Source of the DNA: Tetradesmus obliquus
Lineage: Eukaryota > Chlorophyta > Chlorophyceae > Sphaeropleales > Scenedesmaceae
NCBI GenBank assembly: GCA_030272155.1
Contig: CP126198.1
Span: 372,001-436,000, forward strand
Direction: 5' to 3'
DNA: 64,000 bases
Below, piece after piece: positions 8,501 through 55,398 of the stretch. The notes beneath the pieces are model-generated. The model was not told the origin of the DNA and ran no database searches. It saw only the letters and a list, made by a program, of their open reading frames with translations. Each line of letters opens with the position of its first letter. Position 1 is the stretch's first letter. The translations under genes were made by a program, and so were the position numbers.

Positions 8501-8889
8501 GCATAGTATGTTGCCAAAACCATGAGCTGCATTAAGCCATCGGAAGCTGCTAAAGCTGCTGAGTTCGCTTGCGTTGCGCACGAGTTCGCTAGGGTGCAGC
8601 AGGCAATCACTGCACCTTTGGATCAGCCAGTGCAAGCAGTCTGCAACCAGCTCAAAGTTTGGGCTCCTGAAGTTGTCCAGAGATATCAGGCGAGGGTATC
8701 CCAGGCTCTTCATCATCTCCGTGAAAGCTGGCATGTGTGCAAACAACAATTGCAGGCGGCAAGCATTGCTGTTGTCAGGCCAGGCACTGTGTTGCAGTGT
8801 GGGACAAGGCAGCTGCACACCGTAGATTTCGCGGGCCTGCAGGGCTAGCACAGTCATATATGCTCACATCTAACCTCCTTGAAGCTCAT
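5516..8889 (-). CDS. IFT38: Intraflagellar transport protein 38 (CLUAP1/qilin)
   Basis: A subunit of the IFT-B peripheral complex, which links to kinesin-II and moves cargo along cilia. Nine exons: 8868..8889, 8616..8727, 8141..8354, 7746..7928, 7385..7472, 6916..7046, 6460..6596, 5939..6209, 5516..5755. All junctions are GT-AG and phase-consistent, giving 465 residues against about 413 in human CLUAP1. The start MSFKEVRSFTEMMKSLGYPR is the family N-terminus, and its first exon is only 22 nt. A calponin-homology-like N-terminal domain is followed by coiled coil (SQLSARLDKRRSELERAEKR, VRPAYMDEYE, YLERFRNLQFLEAQLEG). The acidic tail carries a poly-Gln run near residue 350. Introns are short and carry no exon echoes. 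The gene is divergent from Mg-chelatase H. Confidence 0.94.
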
Positions 8890-9094: not shown

Positions 9095-12000
9095 ATGCTG
9101 CTTACCCACACAGGGTGCTCCTCAACATCCCACTCCTCACCCGTCAAGAACAGTGTGAATGACGTTGCAGCAGTCGTTGAAGCGAAACCGTACGAGACCG
9201 TTGAAGCACCGAACAACTGCATGCTCCACACCACACAACACAGGCCTGGGCAGCAGCGCCTCTGCGCCCCGATCGCGCATGCGAATGTTCCCAGACCTGT
9301 AAGACATAATGTTGCTGTTGGGCAGCAGGGCACGAGGCCGTCCACCAGGCACCAGGTGCTGGTGAGAGTTGTGCAAGAGCCAGACATCAAGCAGAGCAAT
9401 GCCGAGGCGTTTATCGAGTCGGTCAAGGAGTCTCTGAAGGAGCAGTCTAAAGATGAAGAGGACACGATCATTGCCGCGAGCATCGATGACCTGCAGCAGC
9501 AGGTCTCTGGCATTGAGCAGCAGGTGCGTGCACTCACCCGACATTGAACAAGCACAGCAAGCTTTTGGCGGGGTCGCATCACGTTGAACAGTGTTGTATA
9601 CAGTTAAACAGCATTTGCTGCGGGCAGGCAGCCGTGTATGTTGCCAGTAATGCTGCAGGTTCCACCACGCAGCAGCCCAGCCAGCACCCCATCCTTGTAG
9701 GCACTCAGCTGCATGCGTGCTGGAGGTGCTGACGCCCAATGCATGGGCTGGCTGTGGAGCTTTTTCAACCCTTTTGTTTTCAGCCTGCCAACTATTGCTT
9801 GTACTGCCTTTTCATCGCATCAGCTTGCCAGCCTTCAGCAGGAGATCGATGCGTGTGTCAACTCAGCCTTCAGGAACATCACCGTCACACTGCCAGCAGA
9901 GCCAGCCGCAGCAGCAACTGGCGACGAGCAGCAGCAGCAGCAGACGCACACCTTTGCAGACATCGACGACGCAGCCTTTGCAGCACTCGGCAGGGACAGC
10001 CCGCAGCTGCTGATGGCGCTGCTGGAGGCAGCGCAGGCAGCAGACAAGGCAGCATGGACAGCCTTCCAGGCAGACCTGCAAACCCTAAAACTGAAGCGGC
10101 AGCGGCTTGCAGGACAACTGGCAGATGCAAGGGCCCTGCTAGGTGCAGCGCAGCGCGAGGCTAGTAAGCGCCAGGGCCTAGGGGCAGCGTCCGGCGCTGC
10201 TGCTGCATTTGATGCAGAGACAGCAGGCATGGCGCCTCTGCGCACTACTGGCGCGCCTGTGCGGACTGTTCGTATCGTGCTGGTCTGTGGCTTTGAGTCA
10301 TTTAATGTGGCGCTGTATAACGCAGCAGCAAAGCGGCTGGCAGCGCTGGCGCCGCATATCCAGCTGAAGGTGTTCAGCGACAGGGATATCGCGACGCGGC
10401 GAGAGGCGGTGGCAGCAGCGCTGGCAGGTGCGCGGCTGAGGGCACAGCAGGGGCTCTGCAGCAGCAGCGCAGGGTCTGACGTGCATTGGTGTAGGTTGTG
10501 GTAGGTTGGCGGCTGGCTGGCCAGCGCGTTGGGGCAATGAGGCAGCTGACAGCAAGGAAGCTGAGCAAGCAGTGATGCATGTGCCCTGAACAGCAAGCGC
10601 TTTGTGATGTTGCTCCTTGCGGCGTGTGTGGCTGTGCTGGGTGCTGATGACCGCATGCAGCTGCTAGTACATTGCAGCGCTGTACATTCATGCCGTTGCA
10701 CAGCCAATTGATTCCCTCATTGGTCCAGCGGCGCTGTGCGGTGTACTTCTGCACGCCGTGTACATGCGACAGAATGCTTGAACAATCCTTATTGTCGCCC
10801 TGATGTTCCTGCAGGTGCTGACTGCTTCTTCGGCAGCCTGCTGTTTGATTATGACACAGTGGAGTGGCTGCGGGCGCAGCTCACAAACGTGCCTGTGGTG
10901 CTGGTGTTTGAGAGCGCGCTGGAGCTGATGGGGCAGACGCGCATCGGCAGCTTCACCATGGACCCCTCAGGTGCGCGCAAGCTGCTGCTGCTGCTGCTGC
11001 TGGTGGTGCGCTGTCGACGCCTGTTTCTGGGTGGGACACTGCGCGATTGTTGGCCTGATCGTAGTTGATGAGCCAATCTCGCATTGGCAGCTTCACCATG
11101 GACCCCTCACTTGGGGTCAGGCTGCTTCTGCTGCACTTCCAACACCTGCATCTGGGAGCGGCGCGTGTGATAGACTTGGCTACGTGGAGCATGCGCTCTG
11201 TAAGGGCGTTGCTGCGCTGCCAGCAGCACGCTTGCGGCGGCATGCCTTCTTACATGCGTCTGCTCCGTTACCCCTGCTGATTTGCAGGCAAGTCCAAGGG
11301 CCCACCCCCCGCAGTGAAGAAGGTGCTAGGGCTGTTTGGCAGCGGCCGCGAGGAGGACCGGCTCACGGGCTACCTGTCCTTTCTGAAGATAGGGCCGCAG
11401 CTGCTCAAGTTCATCCCTGGGAAGAAGGCCAAGGACCTCAAGAGCTGGCTGACTGTGTACGGCTACTGGAACCAGGTGCTTGTGGCACAGTGTAGCTTTA
11501 GCTGAAGTGGAAGAGTGGTAAGCATGATCTGGAGTGTGCGCATGCGCGTTCGGCATGTTTTCCTAAAGCATTGCGTCGCATGCTGTTTGGGCAACACTCA
11601 TGAGTGGGGTGCCGCCGGCTGCGCTAGCGCCTGATGTAGATACTCACTTCTGTACTTTTCTTGGGTCGTGGTGATGTGCTGGGTTGCGTCATGTTTCAAA
11701 GTGTGACAACCCTGCTGCATTTTGTTTGCAGGGTGGCCTGGCCAACGTGGTCAGTATGTTCCTGTACCTGGTGGAGCAGCAGCTGGCCCCTGCGGGCCAA
11801 CCTCTGTTGTGTTGTGTTGCTGATACATAAAAGCCTGCTGTATCGTTGTTTGCAGGGCGGCCTGGCCAACGTGGTGAGCATGTTCCTGTACCTTGCAGAG
11901 GAGCAGCTGGCCCCTGCAGGCCAACCGTCTGTCGTGTTGAGTAGATGATACATAAACCCTGCTGCATTGTTCTTTGCAGGGTGGTCCGGCCAATGTGGTC

Positions 12001-12507
12001 AGCATGTTCCTGTACCTGGTGGAGGAGCAGCTGGCCCCTACAGGCCTGCTAGTGCCTGAGGTATCTTGAGTCAATTTTGAGTCTGAGATTTGGTGTGCTG
12101 CTGCCTGCAGGGTGGCCTGGCTAACGTGGTCAGCATGTTCCTGTACCTGGTGGAGCAGCAGCTGGCCCCCGCAGGCCTGCCGCCGCCCCCACCACCCCAG
12201 GAGACGCCTCAGACGGGCTGCCTGCACCCCGCAAAGCCTGGCTACTACTGGAGCGGCCCGGCAGACTACATGGCTTGGTGAGCATAGATTGAGATTTGCA
12301 GCAGCAGCAGCAGCCGCAGCAGGAACATGGTTCAGATTCCAGCAAAAGCTACTAATGGAAAGGTCCGGCAGACTACATGGCATGTGAGAGCAAAACAACA
12401 GGTTTGCGAAGCTTCTGCAACGTGGATGGTACATTGCCGCGTGCTCCTGTAAGATGCACCATCTAACGTCCTTGTGTGTGAGTTAGAGCCGTGCGTTGTG
12501 CTGCTGC

Positions 12508-12544
<37 letters not shown>

Positions 12545-15199
12545 TATGAGCGCGAGGGCCCGCTGCGTGGCACTGACGCGCCGATTGTGGGTGTGCTGCT
12601 GTACCGCAAGCACGTCATCACAGACCAGCCCTACATCCACCAGCTGATCAGGTGAGGGCCCAGCACAGGTTTGAAATCATTTGCTGACAGCATGCTGCAT
12701 CATTTTGTTGCGTGACTGATGCGGCAAGTGACGCGTAGCGCAGCATGCTGCTGGGGTTCAGCAAGTGACGCATTAGCATACTCTCATGTCATACCTCTGC
12801 TTTCGTGATTCCGCCCCGCAGCCAGATGGAGGCGGAGGGCCTGATCCCTGTGCCTGTGTTCATCAACGGCGTTGAGGCGCACACCGTGGTGCGCGACCAG
12901 CTCACCAGCGAGTTTGAGCAGGCGGGCATTGCCTCAGGGCAGCTGGAGCGCGGCAGCCTGAGGAGGGATGCGGTGAAGGTGGACGCGCTGCTGAGCACGA
13001 TCGGCTTCCCCCTGGTTGGCGGGCCTGCAGGTACGGTTTCGCAGTGTTACAGGGTCTCTGTTTGATGCTGATGATGGGGTTGCACTGGGGGATATGCTGT
13101 GTGTTGTTGCCATTCTGATGGGATTGGAGGAGAGGCAATGTTGAGCACCGTGGTGCGCGACCAGCTCACCAGCGAGTTTGAGCAGGCGGGCATTGCGGCA
13201 GGGCAGCTGGAGCTGGGCAGCCTGAGGAGGGATGCAGTGAAGGTGGACGCGCTATTGAGCACGATTGGCTTCCCCCTGGTGGGCGGGCCTGCAGGTGCGG
13301 TTTTGCAGAGGTGAATCACCTCGTACCATGCTGATGGGGTGTGAACTGGCAGGTTGCTGTGTGTTGTTGTCATTTTGATGGGAGGAGGAAAGTGCTTGTG
13401 CAAGAGAACGGTTCAGGTGGGTGAGTCCTGCGCAGAGTCACCACCAGCGCAGTTCCATGCCATTCTTTTGCACGGATGCTGTGGGATGCGGTCAAGGTGG
13501 ATGCGCTGCTGAGCACGGTTGGCTTCCCTCTCATGGGCGGCCCTGCAGGTGCGGTTTTGTTAAGCCTTGACCAGGCACATGGGCTATTCTGTGGGGGCTG
13601 TGTCGCTCTTTGTATGTAGCAAGGCCGCTGAAGCTGCGGCGTTCCTTGAGCTGGTGATGGTCGTCCTTCTGGTGGTCACGACTGGGGACCCCTGCGGATG
13701 ACCATCGCCGCCTCAAGGAACCGCGCTCAGAAGGCAACCTGTATTGTTTTGTACTGCCCTCATTTCTCAGCTGTAGCTCCCTGGCAGCTGTAGCTCCCTG
13801 GCAGGGTGGCTGGTAGGCTGCGGGTCCTGTGCATCAGTTGCATGCACGTGGGCTATGCTGTGTGGGCTGTGTCGCTCTTTGTATGTAGCAAGGCCGCTGA
13901 AGCTGCAGCGTTCCTTGAGCTCGTGATGGTTGTCTTTCTGGTGGTCACGACTCGGCAACCCCCGCAGATGACCATCGCCGCCTCATGGGACCTCGCTCAT
14001 AAGGCAACAAACCTGTACTGATCTGTGTTGTTTATATACTGCCCTCGTTTACAGCTGCAGCTCCCTGGCAGCGTTGCTAAGGCAGGCCATATGGATCCCG
14101 TGCATCGCTTGCAGGCATGTGCGCCACACATCCACCTACTTCATGCGCCGAAGCATCTGATAACAGCGCCCCTAGACTCCTTTGCTACGCGCCTTTTGAA
14201 ATATGTCGCCCGCCTGGGATGGCCGAGCCTGTGTTGGCCACGCACCGAAGCTGTGCGAGTGTGCCAGATCATGTGGCGTCCTAGATGTGTCGGTGCGTGC
14301 CCGGTCTTCTTTGTTATTCTGTTCCGTTACTATGAATGACGTTGTCACCCCTGATTCTGGCCTGCAGGCACCATGGAGGGTGGCCGCAAGGCTGAGGTGG
14401 CTAACGCCATCCTGGGCAGCCAGTGTCAGACGATGTATAAAAAACCTGTTATGACACTGTTAGATAACATCGTTACACTGTCATTTGTGTCCTGCAGGCA
14501 CCTTGGAGGGCGGCCGCCAGGCTGAGGTGGCCAAAGCCATCCTGGGCAGCCTCACTCTTACACCCTTTCAGTTCATGTTGTTAACACATTGTTACTACAT
14601 TGTTATAACACTGTTACATATTGTGCCGTGTCCTGCAGGCACCATGGAGGGTGGCCGCCAGGCTGAGGTGGCCAAGGCCATCCTGGGCAGCCTCACTCCT
14701 TCTATCTTTCATGTCATGGTGTTATGACATTGTTCGGACATTGTTATGGCATTGTTATAACACCGTTACATTTTTGCTGTGTCCTGCAGGCACCATGGAG
14801 GGCGGCCGCCAGGCTGAGGTGGCCAAAGCGATTCTGGGCAGCCTCAACGTGCCATACGTGGTGGCAGCCCCGCTGCTCATCCAGGACCTGGCCAGCTGGG
14901 CTGAGAGTGGCATTCAGGGCCTGCAGGTGAGCGCTGCTGCTGCCGCTGCTGCTGCTGCTGCTGCCTGAGGTTGTGAACTGTCGCTGTTGCTTTTTTGGGT
15001 TGGCAGACGCCCTGCTCATCCAGGACCTGGCCAGCTGGGTAGACAGCGGCATACAGGGCCTGCAGGTGAGGAGGCTGCTGCTGCTGCTGCTGCCTGAGGT
15101 TGTGAACTGTCGGCTGTTGTTTTTTGGGTGGGCGGCCCCGCTGCTCATCCAGGACCTGGCCAGCTGGGCTGACAGCGGCATACAGGGCCTGCAGGTGCG

Positions 15200-15230
<31 letters not shown>

Positions 15231-15382
15231 TCTGCTGCTTCTGCTTTGGGGCCTTTGAGCTGGTGCTGTTGTGCTTCTATGTTCCGGAAGTACGACTATG
15301 TGTTGCAGAAGCCGCATGTGTGTGCGCTTCACAGTGCACCTTCTGCACGACCGCTTCTGGACGGCGTATTCATGCTACTGAC

Positions 15383-15415
<33 letters not shown>

Positions 15416-16444
15416 GCGCAGTCTGTGGTGCTGTACAGCCTGCCCGAGCTTGATGGCGCCATTGACACGTCCCTGCTTTTGACACTGCTAAACACTGCTG
15501 CTGCTGCTGCTGCGCAGTCTGTGGTGCTGTACAGCCTGCCCGAGCTTGATGGCGCCATTGACACCGTGCCGCTGGGTGGCCTGGTGGGTGACGACATCTT
15601 CCTGGTGCCCGAACGCGTGAGCCGGCTCACCAGCCGCATCCACAAGTGAGTCTCAGGGCATAGGGCTTAGGGTTTGGGTCTAAGGTTTAGGTGTTAGGCC
15701 ATCTTTGGTGGTGACGACATCTTCCTGGTGCCTGAGCATGTGAGCCGGCTCATCAGCCGCATCCACAAGTAAGCCTCAGGGTCTAGTCTTAGGGTTGAGG
15801 TTTAGTTAGTAAGGTGTTAGGCCCTTTTTGGTGGGTGACGACATCTTCCTGGTGCCTGAGAGAGTGAGCCGGCTCACCAGCCGCATCCACAAGTGAGTCG
15901 CAGGGTGTTATGTCTTAGGGTTTAGGTCTCAGGATTCAGGTGTTTTTTTCCCTTTTTGGTGGTGATGATATCTTCCTGGTGCCTGAGCGCGTGAGCCGAT
16001 TGACCAGCCGCATCCACAAGTGAGTCTCAGGGCTCAAGTTGTATGGTTTGACTAGTACGATTTCAGGTTGGAACCCTGTGCTCTTGGGCTGTGACGACAT
16101 CTTTCCTGGTGCCTGAGCGTGTAAGCCGGCTCACCAGCCGCATCCACAAGTGAGTCGCAGTGTGTAGATCTCAGGGTCGGAGTTATGAATCCCGTGCTCT
16201 TCTGCTGGTGATGACATCTTGTCGCACCTGCCTGAATGCGTGAGTCGGCTCACCAGCCGCATCCACAAGTGAGTCGCTTTTCTTCCGATGCATCTGTCGA
16301 CTAGCTGGCTGGCTGCTGGTACTGTGCTGTCTTGATTGTTGCTTTCGTATTGGACGGTGATGCCTGTAATGTTAAGAGAATAATAGAGAGGGAGGTTGGA
16401 CTCCTGTGAGCAGGGTTTGCAACGCTGTGATGTGTAGTTGACCG

Positions 16445-16481
<37 letters not shown>

Positions 16482-19400
16482 GGCCCTGCAGGTGGGTGTC
16501 GCTGCGCCGCACGCCTCCCGCTGAGCGGCGGCTAGCAATGATGCTGTACGGCTTCCCTCCAGGCTTTGGCCCTCACAAACTGACGGTTGTACTGCCTCCG
16601 GCTTGTTCCCTGTCCACTGCACTGCACAGCTCGGTGGTACAGGCTCCTCAGTACAGGCTCCTCACTACTATGAGAAATGCATTGCATGTGCTGGGATGGG
16701 CAGCTGATCGTCCGTCTGCCGCTGCCGCCGCTGCTGCTGCTGCTACTGCTGCTGCTGCTGCTGCCGTCCCTGCAGGTGGGTGTCGCTGCGCCGCACGCCT
16801 CCCTCAGAGCGGCGGCTGCCGCTGATGCTGTACGGCTTCCCGCCGGGCGTTGGCGCAACAGGCACTGCAGCGCTGCTCAACGTGCCGCAGTCGCTGGAGA
16901 ACCTGCTGGCATCGCTGCAGGTGCGGGGCACACATGCAGAAGAGTTGTGTTGGGTTGTTTGGTGCTTTGTTTGTCTGCAAGCTCAGGTTGCTGCTCAACG
17001 TGCCACAGTCGCTGGAGAACTTGCTGGCTTCGCTGCAGGTGCGGGGCACACACACACAGAGTAGTCTTGCTGCGCTGTGTACTGCTTTGTTTTTTGCTTG
17101 TGTGCAGGAGCAGGCTCGGGGTGTTGCCCAGCTTCTGCCCCTCCTTCTGTGCATTTTATTGCAGAACTGCTCAGGGATCACTGACCCAACCATGCTTTGC
17201 CACACACTTTTTTTGGGGCGCCACTGCTTCTCACATGCATGATCAACATCACTGCCTTTGGACGTCATTGCGCTCATCTCTGTCTGCGGGAAGCTGGGTA
17301 TGACTTCGGTCTGCAGCCGCAGGGCAGGCAGGTGCTGACGAGGCGTGGGATGCTGCTGCTGCAGCCTGTTCAACACTGCCTTGAAACATTTTTCTTCTAT
17401 GCTTTGCGCTGCTTGCAGGAAGCTGGTTACGACCTGGGCCCTCTGCGAGAAGGCAGGGAGGCACTGGCTGGGCCGGCTTGCTATTGCTGCTGTCTCCTTT
17501 CCATCGCCTGAATTATTATCATCATACTGCCTTTGCTGCTTGCAGGAAGCTGGTTACGACTTGGGCCCGCTGCCTGAAGGCAGGGAGGCGCTGGCAGGCT
17601 TGGGTGAGGCGCTGCTCAAGACGCTCAAGGGCCAGGAGGAGCCGCGCACGGTCAGCAAGGGGGCAGCAGGTGCGCTGCGGGGTGGGGTGGGCGTGAGGAG
17701 GTTTTGTGGATGTGTTGTGCTGTGTGTTGTGCTGGCGAGGCGCTGCTCAAGACGCTGAAGGGCCAGGAGGAGCCGCGCACAGTCAGCAAGGGCGCGGCAG
17801 GTGTGCGCTCCAGGCTGTTGTGTGCGCTGTGCATTGGGGTGTGTGCGGCGCAGGTGTAGAGCAGTGCGACGTCTTTAACCAAGCGGCAGCCAGTGCTGGG
17901 GATTGTTTTCTGGTCACTGGATATATATTACGTTCAGTCAAGGTGGAGCAGCTTTGCACATGAGTTCGCATGTGCTGTGTTGCACAGGTTTCTCAGTAAG
18001 ATACTTCTACGTGCCACAAGATGCTAGCTGCGTCTGCATGATCCACAGCAACATCAGCAACTCGCGCAATCAACGTGCTGCGCCGCGTGCCGCTCCTCCT
18101 CTGCAGCTGCTCCCTGCAGGCATCAAGGCCCTGGGTGGCGGTTCCATGCTTATGTGTGCCATGAAATGCTGGCTGCCGCTATGGCTGAAATGCACAGCAA
18201 CGTCGGCGGCTGCAGCGATGAACCTATTGCATTGCCTGCCTGTTTCTCTCTGCTGCTGCCTGCAGGCATCAAGGCCCTTGGCGGCGGCCCTGCAGCAGCG
18301 TGGGGCGTCTCAGCAGCAGCAGCAGAGATCTCCCCCAGCCAGCTGCGCAGCATGCTGACCTTCCCTGCCACCTGGGGCCCCACTGAGTGGGGCCCTATGC
18401 CTTACCTACCTGATGATGATGTGCTAGTCAAGCGCATGGAGGCTCAGTGGGGCAGTTTGAATGCCTACCGCGGCATCAACAGTACTATGTCAGGGGGTTT
18501 GCTGATCCCAGGGGTGCAGATAGGCAAGCTGTGGGTGGGCATTCAGCCGCTGCTGGGGCTGGAGGGAGATCCGATGCGGCTGCTGTTTGAGCGGGACTTG
18601 ACACCACACCCGCAGTACGCGGCGGCCTACAAATGGCTGCAGCAGGTGGGTCGAGTTGAGGGCTAAGGCATGCATATGTGTATTTTAGGCTAGGAGCAAA
18701 TCTCGGTGGGCCTGCGTGGGAGCTTCCGTGCACATATGTATGCAGAATCAGCTGCGTTCGAGTTGCAGATAGGCAAGGTGTCTAGCTGTGGGTGGGTATT
18801 CAGCCGCTGCTGGGGCTGGAGGGAGATCCGATGCGGCTGCTGTTTGAGCGGGACTTGACACCACACCCGCAGTACGCGGCGGCCTACAAGTGGTTGCAGC
18901 AGGGGAGGCAGGATGAGGCAGCACATCAGCGTGATTGAATGAGTGTATATCTACATGGGTGGGGGCGGGCGTGTGCATGTGGGGCGTGGGTGGGACTATG
19001 TGCTGTGTCCGGGCTGAGGCCCAGCCGGTGCATGCACGAGGATGTACTGTGTGCATGCTGCTGCTGCTGCTTGCTCCACATTCTGCTAGCTGCCTTTGAT
19101 CTGCCGCTACGTCGATGGCAGGGCTACCAGCTACTGTGCCTCTACGTGGCGCACTGCTGACGTGCGCATTGCTGCCTGTTTCTCCACAACGATGCGCAGG
19201 TGTACTGCGCGGACGCGGTGATCCACTTTGGCATGCACGGCACAGTGGAGTGGCTGCCTGGCAGCCCACTGGGCAACACAGGTGCGGCGCGGCAGCTCCA
19301 GCAGGTTCTGTTACGGCTGTTTGGGCTAATGAAAGCGGAATTCCACGCCAACTCTCACAGAGCCCGCGTCATGTGCGGAGCAAAACATGGCAGCGAGCTG

Positions 19401-22400
19401 CGGTATCTGTCATGCGTAGGCGGGTGCATCTTGCTTGCTTTCTTCCACCTCCTCTTGCTTGCTCTGCATGTGCTGCAACCTCTCTGCTGTGGCACCCGCT
19501 GGGCTCCACCAACCACAGTTCACCCCAAACCGCTGCGCTGCTGCTGCATTGTCCTGCAGGCCTGTCCTGGAGTGATGTGCTGCTGGGTGCGCTGCCCAAC
19601 GTGTACCTGTACGCAGCCAACAACCCCAGCGAGAGCATCATCGCAAAGCGGAGGGGCTACGGCACCATCGTGTCACACAACGTGCCGCCATACGGCCGCG
19701 CAGGTGCGCAGTGTGCTGCTGCACGCATGCTTTTGCTTGTGCTGTTATTGTGATGTACGGTCGCACTGGGAGCGCTGGCCTCTGTTGTCTGGCGCCTGGC
19801 TTTGCTGGATGCCAGTGCCTTCAACATCAAGTGAAACCGTACTGCGCAACCTGCGTGACCTGGTGGCTGACGTGATGGGGCGACCCCGGCAGCGTGCCCA
19901 ACGTGAACTGTCTGCTGCATGCTGCTCATTCTGCAGGCCTGTACAAGCAGCTGTCGGTTCTGCGGGATCTGATTGCTGACGTGAGGGAAGACCCCGGCAC
20001 AGTGCACAACCTCAAGGAGGCCTTCACACAACCTGAGTGTCTGCTCACTTTGTTCCGCCATGCAGGCCTGTACAAGCAGCTGTCGATCTTGCGCGACCTG
20101 ATTGCTGATGTGCGGGAAGACCCCGGCACAGTGCACAATCTCAAGGAGGCCATCGCAGGCAATGTGGAGTCCTCGGGGCTGCAGGCGGACTGCCCGCTAC
20201 GGGAGGGCGCTGAGATGAGCGCAGAGGCGGCAGCAGCAGTGGGGGACGAGGTGGGTGGCTGCGCGGGGTGGTTCGGTTTTGTTTATGGCTGCTGTGTGTG
20301 TTGAGGGGAGCCAGCTGTGTTGCCACGTAGGGTGAGGTTGCGCAGCACAGAGCTGCACGTCTGGCAGAAGGATGAGTGATGGTGACTGCGCTGACGTCCG
20401 TCATGGGGTACGTGATGAAGCATTGTGGAGTCCTCGGGGCTGCAGGCGGACTGCCCGCTGCGGGAAGGCATTGAGATGAGCGCGGAGGCGGCAGCAGCAG
20501 TAGGGGATGAGGTGGGTTGGGTGGGCGGGCGGTTGTGTGTCAAATGAAGTTTGTGAGTGTAAGGGAGCCAGCTGTATGACTGGTTGGGTGAGGTTGCGCA
20601 GGGCTGCAGGGCTGCGCGCTTGGCAGAAGCTTCAGCTCGGTGACTGCGGTGATATCAGTTATGCGGTAGATGTTACAGCGACGTGGAGTCCTCGGGGCTG
20701 CAGGCAGACTGCCCGCTGCGCGAAGGCATCGAGATGAGCGCAGAGGCGGCAGCAGCAGTAGGGGTTGAGGTGGGTGGCTGGGCGGCGTGTTGTGTGTTGG
20801 TGGCTGCTGTTTGTTTGGTGGAGCCAGCTTTAAGGCGGGGTTGGTGAGGTGGCGCAGCACGGAGCTGCGCGCTTGGCACAAGCCTGAACGATGGTCACTG
20901 TGGCGACATTCATTATGCCGTAGATGTTGAAGCAATGCGGAGTCATTTGGCCTGCAGGCGGACTGTGCACCCGTTCTGCTTTGTTTGATCCAGGTGCACC
21001 GTGCTGCCTTCAATTGCTTGCAGGAGTTCCTGGCCTGGTGTGAGCGGCTGCACAGCTACCTGCAAACACTCGAAAACCGCCTCTTCAGCAAGGAACTGCA
21101 CGTGCTGGGGGCGCCAAGATTCACATTGTGAATGTGTGATCCCTATGCGCCGTCCTGCTTTCAACGCTTGCAGGAGCCCCTGTCTGATGTGTTGATTGTC
21201 GGTTGAGTGGAGCATGCGCACAGGTGGACATGGGATGACATGATATCTTATGATTTGTGCTGTGCTGCCTTCCAACGCTTGCAGGAGTTCCTGGCCTGGT
21301 GTGAGCGGCTGCACAGCTACCTGCAAACCCTAGAGAACCGCCTCTTCAGCGAGGGACTGCACGTGCTGGGGGCACCCCCAAGCAACAGCCAGATGGCGCA
21401 GTATCTAGGAGCATATTATGGAGACAGCCTGCCCCAGGAGGCGGTTGATGTGCTGGCTGAAGGGAGGGGAGTGGCCGCGGCACGGTCAGCGCTGGAGGCA
21501 GCATGGCAGCAGGTGGGTCCGTGATATTTATTTTATGAAAAATCAGCACTGCTGCCATGGTCAGCAACAGATGTGATGGCTGGGGGTCATGGAATGTGCG
21601 TGGCACAGGCTTTGCTACAGCACTGGAGGCAGCTTTGGTGCCGCGCGGCTGTGAAGCGAACACAGCACTCTCCTGGCTTGCACCACCAACCTTCAATACT
21701 TTCAAATGGATTTGCGCTGCTAAGATTACCAAAAGACTGCTCACATGCATGATTGCTGGTCATTACATCCAACGCCAACGCTGTTCCGTGCTGCCTTTGC
21801 CTCTCCGCTGATTCTGCCATGCAGCCCGCTGCTGTGAGTGCAGCAGCAGGATCAGCAGCAGCTCCCGCCTCGCAGGCAGCCCCAGCAGACCCGCTGCAGC
21901 TGCTGCAGGAGGCAGAGAACATCCGCGGGCTGCTGCTGCGCAACAGGGAGGAGCTTGGGGGCCTGCTGCGGGCGCTGGATGGTGCCTGGGTGCCGCCTGA
22001 GGCTGGGGGGGATTTGCTGAGAGATGGTCCTGGTGTGCTGCCCACAGGTGCGTCAGGATGCATTGTGTGCGTGTGTGAGTGTGTGTATGTAGTGGGCTGC
22101 ATTGTGGTGATGGGCTTACTGTTGGCTGGAGGGGACCTGCTGAGGGACGGCCCTGGCGTGCTGCCCACAGGTGGGTGGGCTTTGGGGTGTAGCTGCTGTT
22201 GCGTTTGGCAGTTTTCACTGATTGTCCCTCTCTGCCGGACGCCATTGTGCAGCCGGGTGTTTTACAGGTTCAAAAGGCAGTTTGCATCGATGGCGGATCG
22301 CCTGATAGCGTGTGAGCTGGGGGGCCTGCTGCGGGCGCTGGATGGGGCTTGGGTGCCGCCTGAGGCTGGGGGTGACCTGCTGAGAGACGGCCCTGGCGTG

Positions 22401-25400
22401 CTGCCCACAGGTGCGTGTCTGGGCTGTGGGGTGTAGCTGCTGGTGCCTTTGGTGTGGCAGACCTCTTCAATATATTTTCTGCGGACGCTGATTAGCCTGG
22501 TCCTTACAATGTCTAAAAAGGCTGTTCTCATCGAGACCAAATGGCTTGTAGCATGTGAGGTTGGGGGCCTGCTGCGGGCGCTGGATGGTGCCTGGGTGCC
22601 GCCTGAGGCTGGAGGGAACCTGCTGAGAGACGGCCCTGGCGTGCTACCCACAGGTGCGTTTGTGTGGGTGGTCGAGTGGGCATTGTGTCAGCTGGCGCGC
22701 ATGGCAGTCTTTTTTTACCGTGGTGATGAGGGGTAGCGCTGGATGGTGCCTGGGTGCCGCCTGAGGCTGGGGGTGACCTGCTGAGAGATGGTCCCGGCGT
22801 GCTGCCCACAGGTGGGAACGACGTGGGGTTTGCGGGTTGTGGGTGGCTGGGGTTGTGGTTGTCTTCACAGCCGTCTGGCATACGTGTGGATTGTTGGGGC
22901 TCAGCAGGCGCCAGTGAGCAGCCAGTGCGTAGCAGTGACGCCGGTTGTGATCTGACGTCGTACAGACTAACACAAAGTTCATGTTTGTGCTGCTGTCGCC
23001 GCAGGCCGCAACATCCACGCGCTGGACCCCTACCGCATGCCCGGCCCAGCAGCAGATGCCGTACAGACTCCGTTCATACGCGCACGAAATACATATGTTG
23101 ACATATAACATCATGTTTGTGCCGCTGTCACCGCAGGCCGCAACATCCACGCCCTCGACCCTTACCGTATGCCCGGCCCGGCAGCAGAGGCGCGCGGCAC
23201 GCAGGCAGCACAAGCCATCCTAGACGCGCACCGCGCCGCAAACGGCGGCGCGTACCCCGAGACTGTTGCGATCAACCTGTGGGGCCTGGATGCGATCAAG
23301 ACGAAGGGCGAGAGCGTGGCCATGGTGCTGCACATGGTGGGGGCGCGGCCCGTGAAGGAGGGCACAGGGCGCATTGCTCGGTGAGTTGGCGTGAAACATA
23401 ACAGCGCCAAGGTTTGTGCAGTAGTAGGGTGCCTTGGTGTGTGCTCAACATGTCCTGTGAAGGAGGGCACTGGGGGGCATCGCAAGGTGAGTTGAGGCGT
23501 CAACACCGCCCGTTGCCATCAATCTGTGGAGATTAGATGCAATCAAGACGAAGGGCGAGAGCGTTGCCATTGTGCTGCACATGGTGGGGGCGCGGCCCGT
23601 GAAGGAGGGCACAGGGCGCATCGCACGGTGAGCTGGCGTTTTATCGGAGTCGGTGGCAGCGCCGGGGGTGTTTGGCTGTAAGCTGCAGCTGATGAGCCTT
23701 TCCTGATGACAGCTGGCGACGCACAGTAGGATGAGCAGCTTTGTATATAAGCGGTGCAACCAGCGACTCATGAGGATTGCGTGTGAGGATTGCGATCAAG
23801 ACGAAGGGCGATAGTGTGGCTATGGTGCTGCACATGGTGGGGGTGCGGCCCGTGAGGGGAGGGCACCGGGTGCATCGCGCGGTGAGCTGGTGTCAGCAGC
23901 GCCAGGGGCCGGGTCGTGGGTTGTAAGGTGTCCGTGTACTCTGCGCAATCATGTGCCGGATGGAACCTGAGCGCAACCACCGTGAGCAGCTGTCAGGCAG
24001 TTCCATGGGCGTGGGCGGTAGGGTGTATGCGCTGAGAGCTCGCACGGGCAGGCAACAGGGAGCTGGGGACGCATAGCTCAATGAGTGTTTGCTGCGCGGT
24101 GCCACCAGGAGCTCTAGAGTACTGCTCTCCATCAGCGCCCTGCTGTGAAACACATGGCACGCGCATGTGCCTTTGCTGCTCACCGACTTGACAGGCTGCA
24201 GGCACGAATTCACACCCACCCGCCACGTGCTGTGCACGCTGCCTCCAGCAGGTATGAGCTCATCCCGCTGTCTGAAATGGGCGGCCGCCCGCGCGTGGAC
24301 TGCCTCTGCAACATGAGCGGCATCTTCCGCGATGCCGTACAGATCGGTCCCTCTTCCATTGTTATTGTGATTGTGTTTCCCTACCGTCTCACCCTTCTTT
24401 CTTGATCCATGTGCACTTTACACGCTGCTTCCCGCAGGTATGAGCTCATCCCGCTGTCGGAAATGGGTGGCCGGCCCCGCGTGGATTGCCTCTGCAACAT
24501 GTCCGGCATCTTCTGGGGTGCCGTACAGAACGTCCCTTCTTCCATTGTTGTTGTGGTTGTGTTTCCCTGCCGTCTCACCTTTCCCTTCTTGCTTCGCATG
24601 CGCTTTACACGCTGCTTCCTGCAGGTACGAGCTGATCCCGCTGTCCGAGATGGGCGGCCGGCCCCGCGTGGATTGCCTCTGCAACATGTCGGGCATCTTC
24701 CGAGACGCCTTCCAGAATGTGGTGGAGCTGCTAGACGATCTGTTTGCTCGAGCAGCAGCAGCAGCAGACGAGCCGGACGAACTCAACTTCATTGCAAAGC
24801 ATTCCCGCGCGCTGCAGCAGCAGGGCGTCACTGCGGGCGCCAGCGCGCGGCTGTTTAGTAATCCCGCGGGGGATTACGGCAGCATGGTGAATGAGCGCGT
24901 GGGGGCGGGCAACTGGGAGAGCAGCGCGGAGCTGGGGGACACCTGGGCGGCACGCAACGCCTTCAGCTACGGTGAGTGTGGGCGGTATCGGTAGCCTTGT
25001 GTCTGTTTTGACGTTGTCTATTCACGCGTGACGGTCGCAGGCAATTGGGAGAGCAGCGCGGAGCTGGGGGACACCTGGGCGGCTCGCAACGCCTTCAGCG
25101 GCGGTGAGCGCGTATCGTGCCCTGAGGGGTAGCATCAGCCTTGTTTGTGTTTGTTGCGGCATTATCCCTTCACACTGAACAGCCATCTGCATTACTCTGA
25201 AGATGTGGCGTGGTGCAACGAAAGGGCTGCTGCATTGCGCCTGGTCGCTACTGCTTGGAACCTCACCCAACACAACCGCTGCTTGCTGTCCTCTCAACTG
25301 CAGGCAAGGGCGGCGAGCGCGGCGTGGCGCAACCGGAGGTGCTGAGCTCGCTGCTCGGCAGTTCCCAAACTGCTGCTGTTTTAGTTCAACACTTGCACAT

Positions 25401-27265
25401 CACTCGCACAACTGCCGCATGCCTGCTGCGCTGCCTGCTGCAGGCAAGGGCGGCGAGCGAGGCGTGGCGCGGCCGGAAGTTTTGTCGTCGCTGCTGGGCA
25501 GCTGTGAGCGCGTGGTGCAGCAGATCGACAGCGTGGAGTACGGGCTCACCGACATTCAGGTGCGTGTGGATTTTGTGAGGCTTCCGTTTGGCAAGATGTG
25601 GACTTTGCTGTGCCTGCGTCGCTTGATGTTGTTTGCGGCAACCCAGGGAACTCGTTGTTAACAGTGCTACCATACAAGCGCGCGTGCATGTGTGCTATGC
25701 GGACTGCATCGGGAGGCCAAACAGCATTCGTCCAAGCCATTTAGCAGAGGGCCTGCCCCTGCCATTGTAAAGTGTGCTAACTGCTGTGTGCCTGTTCACC
25801 TGCTGCTGCTCTTTCATGCTGCACGAGTAATATGCTAACACTCGGTTTGCTTTGTACATGTATGTAACTAAACATAAATGTTGTACTGCCTCCTGCCGCT
25901 GCTGCTGCAGGAATACTATGCCAACACTGGGGCGCTGGTGGCGGCAGCGAAGAATGCGCGCAAGGGCAAGGCGGTGGGCTGCAGGTGCGGCGGTGGGCTG
26001 GCTGCGTGGCTGCTGTTTCCCGCGTGACATGTGGTTGATGCAGCACAGATGCCAGGTGCAGGCGGTATGTGCTGCCTTTCAATGCCATTTGCCTTCGCGT
26101 CATCGCCTTATGTTTGCAGTGATTATGTTTGCAGTGATTTCACTGCACTCCTCCGCCCGCACCTCCCGCCTGCTTCGCTGCCTGATCTCACATGCTTGCA
26201 CCCCCTCTCACTCATTGCTGCTGGTTGTAACATGCAGCATTATTGAGGCGTATGGCAAGCAGGTGCAGCCTAAGGAGCTGGAAGAGGTGCTGCGCCTGGA
26301 GTACCGCAGCAAGCTGCTGAACCCCAAATGGGCGCAGGCCATGGCCAGTCAGGGCAGCGGCGGCGCGTATGAGATCAGCACACGCATGACGGCGCTGCTG
26401 GGGTGGGGTGGCACTGTCGGTTACACAGACAGCTTCACATGGGACCAGGTGAGATTCATGGCATGTTAAGACACATCACGAGAATTTTCCTGGGTTGTGA
26501 CGGAGACTGTGGCAAGTTGCGGCGGGCGCTGCTGGGGTGGGGCGGCACGGTGGGCTACACCGACAGCTTTACGTGGGACCAGGTGAGATACGTTACATGT
26601 ATATGACACAACCTGACAGTTTTTTGCGGGTTACGAGAGAGACTGTGGCAACTTCTGTCGGCGCTGCTGGGGTGGGGCGGCACCGTCGGTTACACAGACA
26701 GCTTCACATGGGACCAGGTGAGATTCATCCATGTTATGTCATGTTATGACAGGTTGTGACAGTGTTTATGGTCCGTTGGCATGTTATGACGGCGCTGGCG
26801 GGGTGGGGTGGCACGGTGCACTGGGCTACACAGACAGCTTCACGTGGGACCAGGTGGGCGCATGAAGGTTGATGATGTGAATGACCAGCGGATTGCATGG
26901 ATTTGCACTAGCAGCGCCTATGTGCCATACACAGCACAGCATCACCTACTGGGACCTTGCTTCCTTGCGCCTCAGCCACGGCTGCCACGCGCTTTACAGA
27001 ACCCGTCCTGTTTCTGTTTTTTATCTATCGCCTCCAACCCTGCCTCGCCTGCCATGTCTGTCGCTTGCAGGCTGCGGACACGTATGTGCTGGACCCTGAG
27101 ATGGCTGCGCAACTGAAGGCCTCCAACCCGCAGGCCTTCCGCAACGTGCTGGGCCGCTGCCTGGAGGCTGCCGGGCGCGGGCTGTGGCAGCCGCAAGAAG
27201 AGCTCATTGCGAAGCTGCGGGCGATGTATGGGGAGATGGACGATGAGCTTGAAGGCATCAAGTGA
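9095..27265 (+). CDS. CHLH: Magnesium chelatase subunit H (BchH/CHLH2-like)
   Basis: The porphyrin-binding subunit that, with the D and I ATPase subunits, inserts Mg2+ into protoporphyrin IX in the chloroplast. Exons: 9095..9523, 9824..10427, 10815..10970, 11288..11475, 12111..12277, 12544..12651, 12822..13030, 14790..14926, 15518..15645, 16776..16920, 17546..17669, 18266..18645, 19200..19281, 19560..19703, 20066..20250, 21285..21512, 21825..22047, 23137..23380, 24625..24971, 25444..25559, 25911..25984, 26238..26448, 27071..27265. All phases agree; product about 1607 residues. Residues 1-290 are an N-terminal extension with coiled coil; the conserved core begins at VRTVRIVLVCGFESFN. The CobN/BchH signature HFGMHGTVEWLPG is near residues 930-945, followed by YAANNPSESIIAKRRGYG. 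Wording is closer to bacterial BchH than to land-plant CHLH, so I infer the algal second form. The start is the only ATG compatible with the 205-bp promoter; the transit peptide is not obvious. Most introns hold echoes. Confidence 0.95.
11074..11109 (+). repeat. Echo of Mg-chelatase H exon 3 end
   Basis: About 36 nt match the end of exon 3 (RIGSFTMDPS). The donor is lost here: the GT position reads CT. Confidence 0.8.
11732..12060 (+). repeat. Three acceptor-side echoes of exon 5
   Basis: Copies begin right after tttgcag at 11732, 11856 and 11980. The true exon follows at 12111, so spacing is 124, 124 and 131 bp. Each repeats GLANVVSMFLYL and about 70 nt of exon (the third reads GPANVV) before running into intron. 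All three AG acceptors are intact. Confidence 0.9.
12348..12382 (+). repeat. Donor-side echo of exon 5
   Basis: Thirty-five nt match the end of exon 5 (GPADYMA) with a canonical donor, at|gtgaga. Confidence 0.75.
12506..12540 (+). repeat. (CTG)n tract at the 3' splice site of exon 6
   Basis: A near-pure CTG tract in the sense direction runs directly into ccag at the exon 6 acceptor. Comparable tracts precede acceptors or acceptor echoes at 15383..15411 and 16447..16479 in this gene. On the minus strand they precede ClpB acceptors, 55115..55159 (about 15 units) and 55336..55396 (about 20 units). Confidence 0.8.
13141..13548 (+). repeat. Two donor-side echoes of exon 7
   Basis: 13141..13294 repeats the last 150 nt of exon 7 (TVVRDQLTSEFEQAG onward) and 13484..13548 repeats the last 65 nt. 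Both end in gcag|gtgcgg. The first reads AAGQLELGS where the exon reads ASGQLERGS. Confidence 0.9.
13575..14010 (+). repeat. 269-bp tandem duplication inside intron 7
   Basis: Two copies offset by about 269 bp (start points 13581 and 13850) share the stretch containing CTGTGTCGCTCTTTGTATG and the following 150 nt. Neither resembles an exon of this gene. Confidence 0.8.
14368..14700 (+). repeat. Three acceptor-side echoes of exon 8
   Basis: Copies start at 14368, 14498 and 14639, each after cctgcag. The full exon is at 14790. About 52 nt encode TMEGGRQAEVAKAILGS with few changes (K for Q in the first, L for M in the second). The intron parts between them are much more diverged. Confidence 0.92.
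15007..15194 (+). repeat. Two donor-side echoes of exon 8
   Basis: Copies ending at 15065 and 15194 repeat LLIQDLASWxDSGIQGLQ with intact donors gtgagg and gtgcgc. The unit is about 130 bp and includes a CTG tract and TGAGGTTGTGAACTGTCG. Confidence 0.92.
15422..15480 (+). repeat. Acceptor-side echo of exon 9
   Basis: After ccgcgcag the first 48 nt of exon 9 (SVVLYSLPELDGAIDT) occur once, 96 bp before the complete exon at 15518. The nucleotide sequence is identical over that stretch. Confidence 0.92.
15704..16268 (+). repeat. Five donor-side echoes of exon 9
   Basis: Copies of the last 60 nt of exon 9 (GDDIFLVPERVSRLTSRIHK) end at 15768, 15892, 16019, 16149 and 16268. Spacing is 123, 124, 127, 130 and 119 bp, counted from the real donor at 15645. 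All five keep a canonical donor (gtaagc or gtgagtc). The fourth and fifth carry indels. The intron part contains degenerate TTTAGGG-like words. Confidence 0.95.
16492..16575 (+). repeat. Acceptor-side echo of exon 10
   Basis: After tggccctgcag the copy encodes WVSLRRTPPAERRLAMMLYG, against PSERRLPLMLYG in the exon at 16776, then diverges. Confidence 0.92.
16988..17038 (+). repeat. Donor-side echo of exon 10
   Basis: Fifty nt encode LLNVPQSLENLLASLQ with only synonymous changes and the same gtgcggggcacac intron start as the real donor at 16920. Confidence 0.92.
17290..17480 (+). repeat. Two acceptor-side echoes of exon 11
   Basis: Copies start at 17290 and 17419; the full exon starts at 17546. 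The first has lost its acceptor (cgg for cag) and is the more diverged (EAGYDFGLQPQG). The second keeps cag and reads EAGYDLGPLREGREAL. Confidence 0.9.
17734..17800 (+). repeat. Donor-side echo of exon 11
   Basis: Sixty-seven nt repeat LLKTLKGQEEPRTVSKGAA with a gtgtgc donor. Changes from the exon are synonymous. Confidence 0.92.
18120..18145 (+). repeat. Acceptor-side echo of exon 12
   Basis: A short copy of IKALGGG after ccctgcag, 146 bp before the real exon start at 18266. Confidence 0.75.
18765..18902 (+). repeat. Donor-side echo of exon 12
   Basis: About 138 nt repeat the end of exon 12 (IQPLLGLEGDPMRLLFERD onward), almost identical. The donor GT has become GG (cagcag|gggagg). Confidence 0.92.
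19838..20035 (+). repeat. Two acceptor-side echoes of exon 15
   Basis: A decayed copy at about 19838..19905 (LRDLVADV then divergent) precedes a good one at 19937. The good copy repeats LYKQLSVLRDLIADVREDPG after ctgcag, 129 bp before the real exon at 20066. Confidence 0.88.
20422..20975 (+). repeat. Two to three donor-side echoes of exon 15
   Basis: Copies end at 20511 and 20769, spaced 261 and 258 bp from the real donor at 20250. Each repeats ESSGLQADCPLREG to the exon end and the intact donor gtgggt. A decayed fragment lies near 20940..20970. Confidence 0.9.
21024..21195 (+). repeat. Acceptor-side echoes of exon 16
   Basis: 21024..21118 repeats EFLAWCERLHSYLQTLENRL after gcttgcag. A second remnant at 21174 keeps only the acceptor and GAG. 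The complete exon is at 21285. Confidence 0.9.
22124..22811 (+). repeat. Four donor-side echoes of exon 17
   Basis: Copies of the end of exon 17 (LLRALDGAWVPPEAGG, LLRDGPGVLPTG) end at 22170, 22410, 22653 and 22811; the real donor is at 22047. Donors are all intact (gtgggt, gtgcgt, gtgcgt, gtggga). By hand count the copies differ from the exon at about 27 synonymous and 2 non-synonymous codon positions. Confidence 0.95.
23005..23068 (+). repeat. Acceptor-side echo of exon 18
   Basis: After gccgcag the copy reads RNIHALDPYRMPGPAA, identical in protein to the exon at 23137. It lies 132 bp upstream of it. Confidence 0.92.
23452..23881 (+). repeat. Three donor-side echoes of exon 18
   Basis: Copies end at 23486, 23627 and 23881; the real donor is at 23380. 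The second is the longest, repeating INLWRLDAIKTKGESVA and VARPVKEGTG-like sequence. All keep the gtgag donor. The first has an indel. Confidence 0.92.
24252..24530 (+). repeat. Two acceptor-side echoes of exon 19
   Basis: Copies start at 24252 and 24438; the full exon starts at 24625, so spacing is 186 and 187 bp. About 85 nt encode YELIPLSEMGGRPRVDCLC with only synonymous changes there. They diverge after SGIF. Confidence 0.94.
25041..25103 (+). repeat. Echo of exon 19 end with both splice sites, in frame
   Basis: Sixty-three nt repeat NWESSAELGDTWAARNAFS. This copy has both an acceptor (cggtcgcag) and a donor (gtgagc), enters and leaves in phase 1, and is 21 codons long. Its inclusion in mRNA would keep the frame. 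Confidence 0.85.
25304..25365 (+). repeat. Acceptor-side echo of exon 20
   Basis: After actgcag the copy encodes KGGERGVAQPEVLSSLLGS; the exon at 25444 has R for Q. Spacing is 140 bp. Confidence 0.92.
26523..26853 (+). repeat. Three donor-side echoes of exon 22
   Basis: Copies end at 26582, 26717 and 26853; the real donor is at 26448 (spacing 134, 135, 136 bp). The first two repeat ALLGWGGTVGYTDSFTWDQ unchanged. The third has a 3-nt insertion after ACGGTG and an A for L change. All donors are intact. Confidence 0.94.
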
Positions 27266-27295
27266 TGCGGCTGATTGATGGGTGATCTCTGCTTG

Positions 27296-27386
27296 GTGGG
27301 GCTGTGGCAGCCGCAGGAGCAGCTGATTGAGATGCTGCGCTCTATGTACGGGGAGATGGACTATGAGTTGGAGGGTGTAAAGTGAT
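27296..27386 (+). repeat. Echo of the last exon including the stop codon
   Basis: About 90 nt after the true stop repeat GLWQPQEQLIEMLRSMYGEMD, then the stop and adjacent 3' UTR (TGATGCAG against TGATGCGG). No splice site is involved. Confidence 0.92.
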
Positions 27387-39722: not shown

Positions 39723-39726
39723 GTTG

Positions 39727-43902: not shown

Positions 43903-44444
43903 TTAGCGGCTGCCTGCCATCGCGTAGCCGTCTCCTGCAAACACGTTCATGTCCACCTTAGGCCCTTTGCTGAACACCAGCCCACCATCATGGCCTGCAT
44001 CCACCAGCACAGTGTCCTCCTCTTCAAACTCGCCCCGCAGCATGGCTTTTGCCAGCCCTGTTTCCAGCTCGCGCTGCACCGCGCGCTTGACCGGCCGCGC
44101 TCCATACACGGGGTCGTAGCCCTGGCGGGCCAGGTAGTCGACGGCGCTCTCGCGCAGCTCCAGCTTCATCTTCTTGTCCCGCAGCCGCTCCGCAACGCGC
44201 TTGACCTGCAAGCAAACATTGGCGTTTAGGCGTGAGTAAGGCGGCAAAGCAAGGCATGTGGGTAAAGGACGAGCTGGTGTGTGCAGCTCTAGCTTCATCT
44301 TCTTGTCACGCAGCCGCAGCAGAATGGCATGCAGCGCTTGGATTTATGCAGAGACATGTGCATGGCGTTGTGTGAGACACAGGCGCAGCTGCACAGTTGC
44401 ACATGCAGTGCACACCACGCCTTTAAGCCTGACGATAGCACCCC

Positions 44445-44489
<45 letters not shown>

Positions 44490-55113: not shown

Positions 55114-55162
<49 letters not shown>

Positions 55163-55335
55163 GTTGGTTCGGAGTCAGGCTGTTAGGGATGCTCCAGCAG
55201 CGCCTTGAGCAGGTGCTCGCTCTCCACGATCTATAACAGCAGCAGCAGCAGCAGCGGCAGCAGCGGCAGCAGCACGTTGGTTTCAGAGTCAGCTGTTGGG
55301 CTGCTCCAGCAGCACGTGCTAACTCTCCACGATCT

Positions 55336-55398
<63 letters not shown>

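Follow-up and report, generated by a model that had tools for sequence, protein, structure and literature searches.

The stretch of DNA analysed here, in the following called the window, covers 64 kb of the green alga Tetradesmus obliquus (Chlorophyceae, Sphaeropleales; positions 372001-436000 of contig C8). It contains the genes ChlH, encoding magnesium chelatase subunit H, and ClpB, as well as part of a third gene. The introns of these genes harbor tandem arrays of partial copies of the adjacent exon ends, which are the subject of this study. All DNA analysed stems from one assembly of 104.7 Mb in 17 contigs; the gene models were built in this analysis and compared with annotated proteins.

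For ChlH, the modelled protein shows no amino acid difference to the annotated protein OEZ86_014043 across the modelled part and 19 differences over ~1458 residues to OEZ85_013777, the protein of a second annotated strain. Beyond the model, OEZ86_014043 contains extra upstream sequence and an insert, in which some of the copies of intron 16 are read as exons, and nothing else. This insert is absent in OEZ85_013777.

Placement and extent of the exon-end copies

A self-comparison of the whole window by BLASTN (simple repeats masked, E<=1e-6) revealed 117 direct pairs, all of them separated by less than 2 kb; inverted pairs are absent. The copies lie head to tail in direct orientation and at regular spacing, thus forming tandem repeat arrays, and the output of a repeat finder agrees with this. 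Dispersed repeats were rejected, since no pair is separated by 2 kb or more.

The copies were identified by searching each exon against its own gene with a cut-off of E<=1e-3 for the exon-side similarity, and strongly decayed copies are therefore missed. This cut-off limits the divergence that can be seen, but it is blind to codon position. Here, copies of an exon end are called tails and copies of an exon start heads. In ChlH, 44 partial copies were found (27 tails, 16 heads and 1 near-tail), located in the flanking introns or just past the stop codon, and 15 of the 21 introns hold at least one. This substantiates a preliminary description of the window, which had counted at least 35 partial exon copies in most introns of ChlH. 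In ClpB, 46 copies are present and 14 of the 15 introns hold at least one. Including those near an exon edge, both genes together contain 90 copies in 44 arrays.

The position of the copies follows a simple rule. All 60 edge-reaching tails lie downstream of their own exon and all 27 edge-reaching heads upstream of it. The tails finish at the 5' splice site (in one ChlH array, which has the same geometry, at the stop codon) and the heads begin directly after the 3' splice site, as had been claimed before for partial exon ends. In all 87 cases, the duplicated segment thus spans the boundary of the exon, and the intron sides are partly alignable. Among the 93 non-self matches on the plus strand, 3 further ones fall into the correct flanking intron but stop short of the exon edge, and another 3, all weak, map to other places; on the minus strand 5 weak matches were obtained. 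In the third gene, 6 tail copies are located downstream and 3 head copies upstream, each with its GT or AG, together with 2 internal copies on the matching side. Heads and tails overlap in none of the 13 exons carrying both (shuffle P 0.008), which may reflect the unit size alone.

The observation of exon-end arrays is therefore confirmed and larger than first described. The preliminary description had placed the arrays at 11074..27386 within ChlH, where they are indeed present, but they are not confined to this region and occur as well in ClpB (44.3-56.4k), in the third gene (59.5-63.6k) and on other contigs. It had also stated that, of the copies, the outermost alone is connected to the full exon. 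As geometry this is correct, but it needs no rule of its own: when a segment across an exon end is duplicated in tandem, the additional copy inevitably comes to lie on the intron side.

Neighboring copies are spaced by 95-158 bp in 67 of 87 cases and by 184-284 bp in the other 20, evenly distributed across the three frames. Tandem duplication of segments of ~125 or ~250 bp across exon ends accounts for tails lying downstream and heads upstream. Two of the copies of ClpB exon 12 have identical exon parts, which indicates that array growth is recent in places. Without the arrays, the mean intron length of ChlH falls from 621 to 290 bp and that of ClpB from 666 to 265 bp. Table 1 of PMC5966456 lists mean intron lengths of 230-302 bp for four other algae and of 462 bp for T. 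obliquus; the array-free introns of both genes are close to the range of these four algae.

Edge-reaching arrays (42) stand against a single intron-only array (13572-14072). Random placement would let ~55% of the arrays cross a boundary, and the binomial probability for 41 of 42 is 4e-10. If only the splice-site windows with a detectable intron side are counted together with the intron-only array, the ratio is 16 of 17 (P 0.0005), although these windows are not fully independent. This enrichment at exon ends partly reflects what can still be seen, as copies confined to introns decay faster.

Outside of the window, 15 of 18 readable 10-kb stretches picked across the genome contain local direct repeats at an offset of 90-300, in total 163 near pairs, no distant pair and 8 inverted pairs, and such repeats are present in all of three further stretches. 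One more stretch of the first set, the 19th, consists of N only. These counts do not imply that each repeat is an exon-end copy. In the rest of the genome, where the preliminary description had proposed to look for the same arrays, a tRNA-synthetase domain search showed repeated neighboring profile segments in three of six gene places; the places on C1, C5 and C9 are without them. The three genes on C10, C13 and C15 were selected because repeated segments were visible. Here, 17 of 24 profile matches served as exon queries (among those left out, 4 are copies in their own right and 2 contain several stops); for 5 of the 17 no copy was found, and a single stop is present in three. The 20 copies obtained obey the same placement rule, with 11 tail-side copies downstream, 9 head-side copies upstream and none on the opposite side.

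The first 10.9 kb of the window contain one direct pair only (2420-2693; self-BLASTN), so that the density of arrays is strongly unequal among genes. A second ChlH-like gene (C4:7709345-7714825) is more compact, and its 10-kb stretch has one near direct pair only.

Coding and splice-site constraint on the copies

The strongest feature of the arrays is the coding and splice-site constraint on the copies, which the preliminary description had missed. The codon analysis is based almost wholly on ChlH and ClpB, with a small replication in the three repeat-selected genes. The 3 near-edge copies were excluded from all constraint counts and the stop-codon array also from the counts of donor positions and intron alignments.

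At codon positions 1, 2, and 3, the differences amount to 0.080, 0.075, and 0.243 between copies and to 0.071, 0.042, and 0.192 between exon and copy. In the three genes on C10, C13 and C15, the corresponding mismatches are 0.067, 0.048, and 0.167. The ratio of non-synonymous to synonymous divergence (dN/dS) is 0.22 for pairs of copies (95% interval 0.16-0.29, 22 arrays). Between exon and copy, all copies together give 0.17; when each of 42 arrays is represented by its farthest copy, the value is 0.22 (0.16-0.29). Neutral simulations, which assume 5% acceptance of amino acid changes in the real exon, a 1.3-fold mutation of G and C and a transition weight of 2.5, gave 0.80 for pairs in which both copies are neutral; the worst case, with half of the divergence lying in the real exon, gave 0.42, and for exon and copy the simulated floor is ~0.41. 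Wrong-frame controls resulted in a dN/dS of 1.5-2.2, with 1.5-1.7 for pairs of copies. Neutral pseudogene fragments without coding constraint, for which the simulations span 0.40-0.80, are not in line with the observed dN/dS of 0.17-0.22. The aligned codons contain 4 in-frame stops across the 87 copies, compared to 0.17-0.28 per copy in the neutral simulation.

The intron parts of the copies provide an internal reference. Where they are alignable, exon and copy differ by 0.20 in the intron, 0.22 at fourfold degenerate sites and 0.037 at codon positions 1 and 2; for pairs of copies the values are 0.19, 0.29, and 0.047. This shows that silent sites change at about the rate of the intron, while sites that change amino acids are slow. 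In pairs without an alignable intron the contrast is weaker but points in the same direction (positions 1 and 2 at 0.068 for exon and copy and 0.096 between copies, vs. 0.22 and 0.28 at fourfold sites). A mutation bias as cause of the codon pattern was rejected based on the wrong-frame controls and on fourfold sites that are not clearly above introns. Likewise, a conversion limited to exons, as by cDNA, was rejected since the silent divergence is about that of the introns. It is therefore well supported that the copies diverge like coding DNA and not like idle sequence, which is a signature of selection. The constraint is weaker than in real exons: for substitutions private to a copy the estimate is 0.42 (0.30-0.55), compared to 0.07 for the real exons, whereby three-copy arrays mix in changes of the exon lineage.

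A similar footprint is present at the splice sites. GT is found at 52 of the 60 copy donors (one of the 60 belongs to the stop-codon array) and AG at 25 of the 27 acceptors. The donor bases match the real site at +1 and +2 in 54 of 59 copies each and at +5 in 56 of 59, dropping to only 24-34 of 59 at +6 to +12; at the acceptor, the matches are 27, 25, and 26 of 27 at -1, -2, and -3, respectively. Position +5 belongs to the normal donor consensus here, with a pairwise identity of 0.94 among the real donors. The drop in identity coincides with a shared GTNNG motif in 31 of 59 cases, which is not clearly separated from control motifs (43/99, 24/57, 15/52, and 13/40). In front of several acceptors (exons 5, 8, and 9 of ChlH and exons 2, 3, and 12 of ClpB) lie (CTG)n runs that terminate in CAG, where the CUG repeat seems to serve as pyrimidine tract.

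The inner ends of the copies have no excess of splice signals, with AG at 4 of 60 tail starts and GT at 1 of 27 head ends, against a background of 0.061 and 0.077. Reading through from the exon into the copy is stopped in 77 of 87 cases, and the constraint is alike at the three frame offsets (0.14, 0.17, 0.20). Judged from these signals, canonical splicing should not make use of the copies or bring their codons in frame into the protein. Cassette exons were rejected, as the inner ends lack a splice signal, and so was read-through translation, which is blocked and shows no effect of frame. Neither OEZ85_013777 nor the ClpB protein P0121 includes the copies.

Coordinates and further features of the window

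The genes and arrays are compiled in Table 1. The intron-only duplication in intron 6 of ChlH (13572-14072, +) is a tandem pair of a hairpin-forming element, and a long hairpin (-71.5 kcal/mol, z -5.1) is located at 13600-13740. A search of Rfam at the gathering threshold gave no match, including for this hairpin, which looks like a microRNA precursor or a small inverted-repeat element. The intron parts of the ChlH exon 8 copies (15650-15960, +) carry runs that resemble the TTTAGGG telomere repeat.

Upstream of ChlH, a frame for the ATP-synthase subunit ASA5 (2039-2416, +) and a Cluap1-like gene (6253-8863, -) are present. A minisatellite with 9 copies of a 25-bp unit (98% matches) lies at 37582-37808, in or near a gene resembling class-V aminotransferases. 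Between ChlH and ClpB, an open frame of 563 amino acids with a reverse-transcriptase domain (RVT_1, E 1.6e-19) was found at 39677-41368 (+).

Table 1. Modelled genes and exon-end arrays of the window; arrays are from the search of each exon against its own gene.
Feature	Position	Strand	Remark
ChlH gene	9842..27265	+	22 exons modelled; annotated protein begins further upstream
ChlH exon 2, 1 tail copy	11063..11109	+	donor dinucleotide lost
ChlH exon 4, 3 head copies	11732..12049	+	
ChlH exon 4, 1 tail copy	12348..12384	+	
ChlH exon 6, 2 tail copies	13146..13548	+	
ChlH exon 7, 3 head copies	14368..14695	+	
ChlH exon 7, 2 tail copies	15001..15194	+	
ChlH exon 8, 1 head copy	15422..15468	+	100% identical
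ChlH exon 8, 5 tail copies	15706..16268	+	
ChlH exon 9, 1 head copy	16492..16570	+	
ChlH exon 9, 1 tail copy	16990..17038	+	
ChlH exon 10, 2 head copies	17290..17471	+	
ChlH exon 10, 1 tail copy	17734..17800	+	
ChlH exon 11, 1 tail copy	18764..18902	+	
ChlH exon 14, 1 head copy	19937..20028	+	
ChlH exon 14, 2 tail copies and 1 near-tail copy	20420..20965	+	
ChlH exon 15, 1 head copy	21024..21115	+	
ChlH exon 16, 4 tail copies	22124..22811	+	some read as exons in OEZ86_014043
ChlH exon 17, 1 head copy	23005..23059	+	
ChlH exon 17, 2 tail copies	23512..23881	+	
ChlH exon 18, 2 head copies	24252..24533	+	
ChlH exon 18, 1 tail copy	25037..25099	+	
ChlH exon 19, 1 head copy	25304..25361	+	
ChlH exon 21, 3 tail copies	26525..26853	+	
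ChlH last exon end including stop codon, 1 copy	27299..27385	+	past stop; no splice site
ClpB gene	44024..56615	-	16 exons modelled; 100% match to OEZ86_014046; modelled 3' end approximate
ClpB exon 16, 1 near-head copy	44283..44317	-	
ClpB exon 15, 4 tail copies	44518..44881	-	
ClpB exon 15, 1 head copy	45249..45287	-	
ClpB exon 14, 2 tail copies	45566..45749	-	
ClpB exon 14, 1 head copy	46061..46113	-	
ClpB exon 12, 9 tail copies	46874..48058	-	longest array; two with identical exon parts
ClpB exon 12, 1 head copy	48318..48349	-	
ClpB exon 11, 3 tail copies	48550..48929	-	
ClpB exon 10, 1 tail copy	49430..49469	-	
ClpB exon 9, 4 tail copies	49880..50287	-	
ClpB exon 9, 2 head copies	50551..50751	-	
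ClpB exon 7, 1 head copy	51403..51433	-	
ClpB exon 6, 1 head copy	52069..52105	-	
ClpB exon 5, 1 tail copy	52300..52377	-	
ClpB exon 5, 2 head copies	52669..52834	-	
ClpB exon 4, 2 tail copies	53092..53417	-	
ClpB exon 3, 2 tail copies	53983..54306	-	
ClpB exon 3, 1 near-head copy	54657..54706	-	
ClpB exon 2, 2 head copies	55186..55333	-	
ClpB exon 1 as modelled, 5 tail copies	55820..56383	-	
Third gene	59466..63563	-	6 exons outlined; gene truncated by window end

Possible explanations and relation to known systems

The explanation favored here, tentatively and at somewhat less than an even chance, combines duplication with second-order selection. A tandem duplication of ~95-160 or 185-285 bp that has one boundary within an exon and reaches into the neighboring intron, or beyond the stop codon, would add a partial exon end on the intron side and leave the messenger RNA (mRNA) unchanged. 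Repeated duplication would let the arrays grow and about double the length of the introns, as is seen in the anatomy of both genes. Within an array, unequal recombination or gene conversion may sometimes swap the working exon end for a copy. A damaged copy would then be a small heritable liability, haplotypes with broken copies would be penalized, and in a large population second-order selection could keep the copies functional. The copies would thus act as spare exon ends that are exchanged at the level of DNA and not as alternative exons used in splicing. The constraint suggests that these seemingly unused copies are retained as spare parts rather than debris.

Exchange among copies was addressed by conflicting site patterns. 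Among the 10 arrays with at least 4 copies, five were testable and four of these show conflicts, in ClpB exon 12 for 15 of 36 pairs; the fifth shows none (0 of 6). Simulation without recombination, performed for the four conflict arrays only, resulted in P values of 0.010, 0.142, 0.072, and 0.043. This fits exchange among copies, but not strongly. Furthermore, at the seven residues of the copied ChlH regions which differ between the two strains, the copies carry the residue of OEZ85 at 3, that of OEZ86 at 3 and another one at 1. Such a mix is expected if the copies predate the split of the two annotated strains, and they look older than it.

Several points weigh against selection on spare exon ends. 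Counted without alignment, 9 of the 87 copies hold an in-frame stop, and of 12 indels within aligned exon sequence only 1 has a length divisible by three; with stops in about one tenth of the copies and frame-shifting indels, the copies enjoy less protection than real exons. The constraint is flat with distance from the exon (0.14, 0.23, 0.14, and 0.18 by rank), a pattern that the model does not specifically predict. The conflict test is weak, as only 5 of 10 arrays have testable site pairs, one of these is without conflict and only the conflict arrays were simulated. We infer the exchange step, of which no event was directly observed. Finally, the model needs a large population and a rearrangement of the arrays that is slow enough for a silent divergence of 0.3-0.4.

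The strongest rival explanation, in itself unlikely, is that the copies are borrowed alleles, which unequal recombination has carried over from deeply diverged lineages or hybridizing relatives. They would retain the history of exon ends that were functional elsewhere, would have been idle only briefly and would not be under selection as copies. This would equally predict a coding-like divergence, intact splice sites and an intron divergence equal to the silent divergence. However, many source lineages would be needed, and deeper ones than the two strains, since dN between exon and copy is 0.056 compared to 19 differences in ~1458 residues between the strains. Moreover, up to nine mutually diverged copies per array would demand many separate imports.

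It is quite unlikely that the copies are used on the level of RNA, meaning that some transcripts take them in by minor, non-canonical or regulated splicing and that they are conserved because they are translated. Such a use would fit the codon constraint and the splice-site consensus kept in the copies as well as the exons read from intron 16 in OEZ86_014043. On the contrary, AG and GT at the inner ends do not exceed the background, reading through is closed in 77 of 87 copies, the constraint is similar in all frame offsets, and the protein of OEZ85 lacks the insert.

Neutral debris, i.e., ordinary boundary-crossing duplications that persist since the mRNA is unchanged and whose copies are unconstrained, is improbable. 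It fully accounts for the placement of the copies, and some of them do contain stops and frame-shifting indels. A crude phase test on the arrays of arbitrary genome stretches also gave no overall coding signal (37 pairs, z 1.1, reached by 646 of 4000 null runs), with z values of 2.4 for the three densest stretches (60 of 4000) and -0.7 for the other stretches, compared to 1.7 for ClpB and 6.1 for ChlH. Against this stand the dN/dS of 0.17-0.22 below a simulated neutral floor of ~0.41, the footprint at the splice sites and the codon bias seen again in three other genes.

An assembly artefact, in which haplotypes or reads are misjoined in tandem, is hardly credible even with DNA evidence from a single assembly, as the divergence of the copies from the exon is ~11% in the exon part and higher, including indels, in the intron part, the assembly comprises 17 contigs for 104.7 Mb, the copies carry the residue of OEZ85 at three of the seven strain-differing sites, and unrelated genes show the same arrays.

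Introner elements are copies of one element dispersed over many genes and are known from the intron invasion in Micromonas. The arrays of Tetradesmus resemble these as a lineage-specific change of introns in a green alga but differ in that each array copies its own exon only. No pair at least 2 kb apart was present in the window or within the sampled 10-kb stretches, whereby similarity between stretches was not searched. Tandem exon duplications and mutually exclusive exons likewise involve local direct coding copies with splice signals. There, each copy has both splice sites, whereas in Tetradesmus the copies are partial exons with one splice site, and their inner ends are at background. In pseudogene-to-gene conversion, second-order selection could likewise act on a silent copy if it exchanges sequence with a functional one. 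This concerns whole pseudogenes, in contrast to the dozens of sub-exon pieces within the introns of the gene itself.

The nearest known case is the RdRp gene of potato, for which a tandem duplication across the intron-exon boundary is described, whose segment runs from the 3' end of an intron into the 5' part of the exon that follows and includes the acceptor signals (PMC4974935). As presented there, this was a single event, the new intron is backed by RNA reads and the transcript is lengthened, while in Tetradesmus many duplications per gene are present on both sides of the exons and the copies are left out of the modelled proteins. In the AGGT-containing exonic tandem duplication (Rogers; Hellsten et al.), as summarized in section 5 of the same article, the duplication concerns a piece within an exon and gives rise to a new intron (PMC4974935). 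Here too, a tandem duplication within the gene supplies the splice sites. This type of intron gain, named in the preliminary description, does not fit, since the arrays lie at existing introns and AG and GT at the inner ends show no excess. A full-text literature search, with most subscription papers outside its coverage, retrieved no description of such exon-end arrays.

For annotators the arrays represent a warning, as the deposited ChlH protein OEZ86_014043 has copies annotated as exons. In biological terms, they offer a simple mechanism of intron growth in one lineage. They also provide an unusual test of how splicing tells the correct site from decoys that are nearly identical to it, and of whether sequence not expressed as protein can be protected by selection. 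Still more tentatively than for the mechanism itself, much of the Tetradesmus genome may contain heritable libraries of spare exon ends, kept coding- and splice-competent through selection and exchanged by recombination, with no path through canonical splicing. If the reading of the copies as spare exon ends is true, this would mean selection at the protein level on sequence that lies outside of the mRNA.

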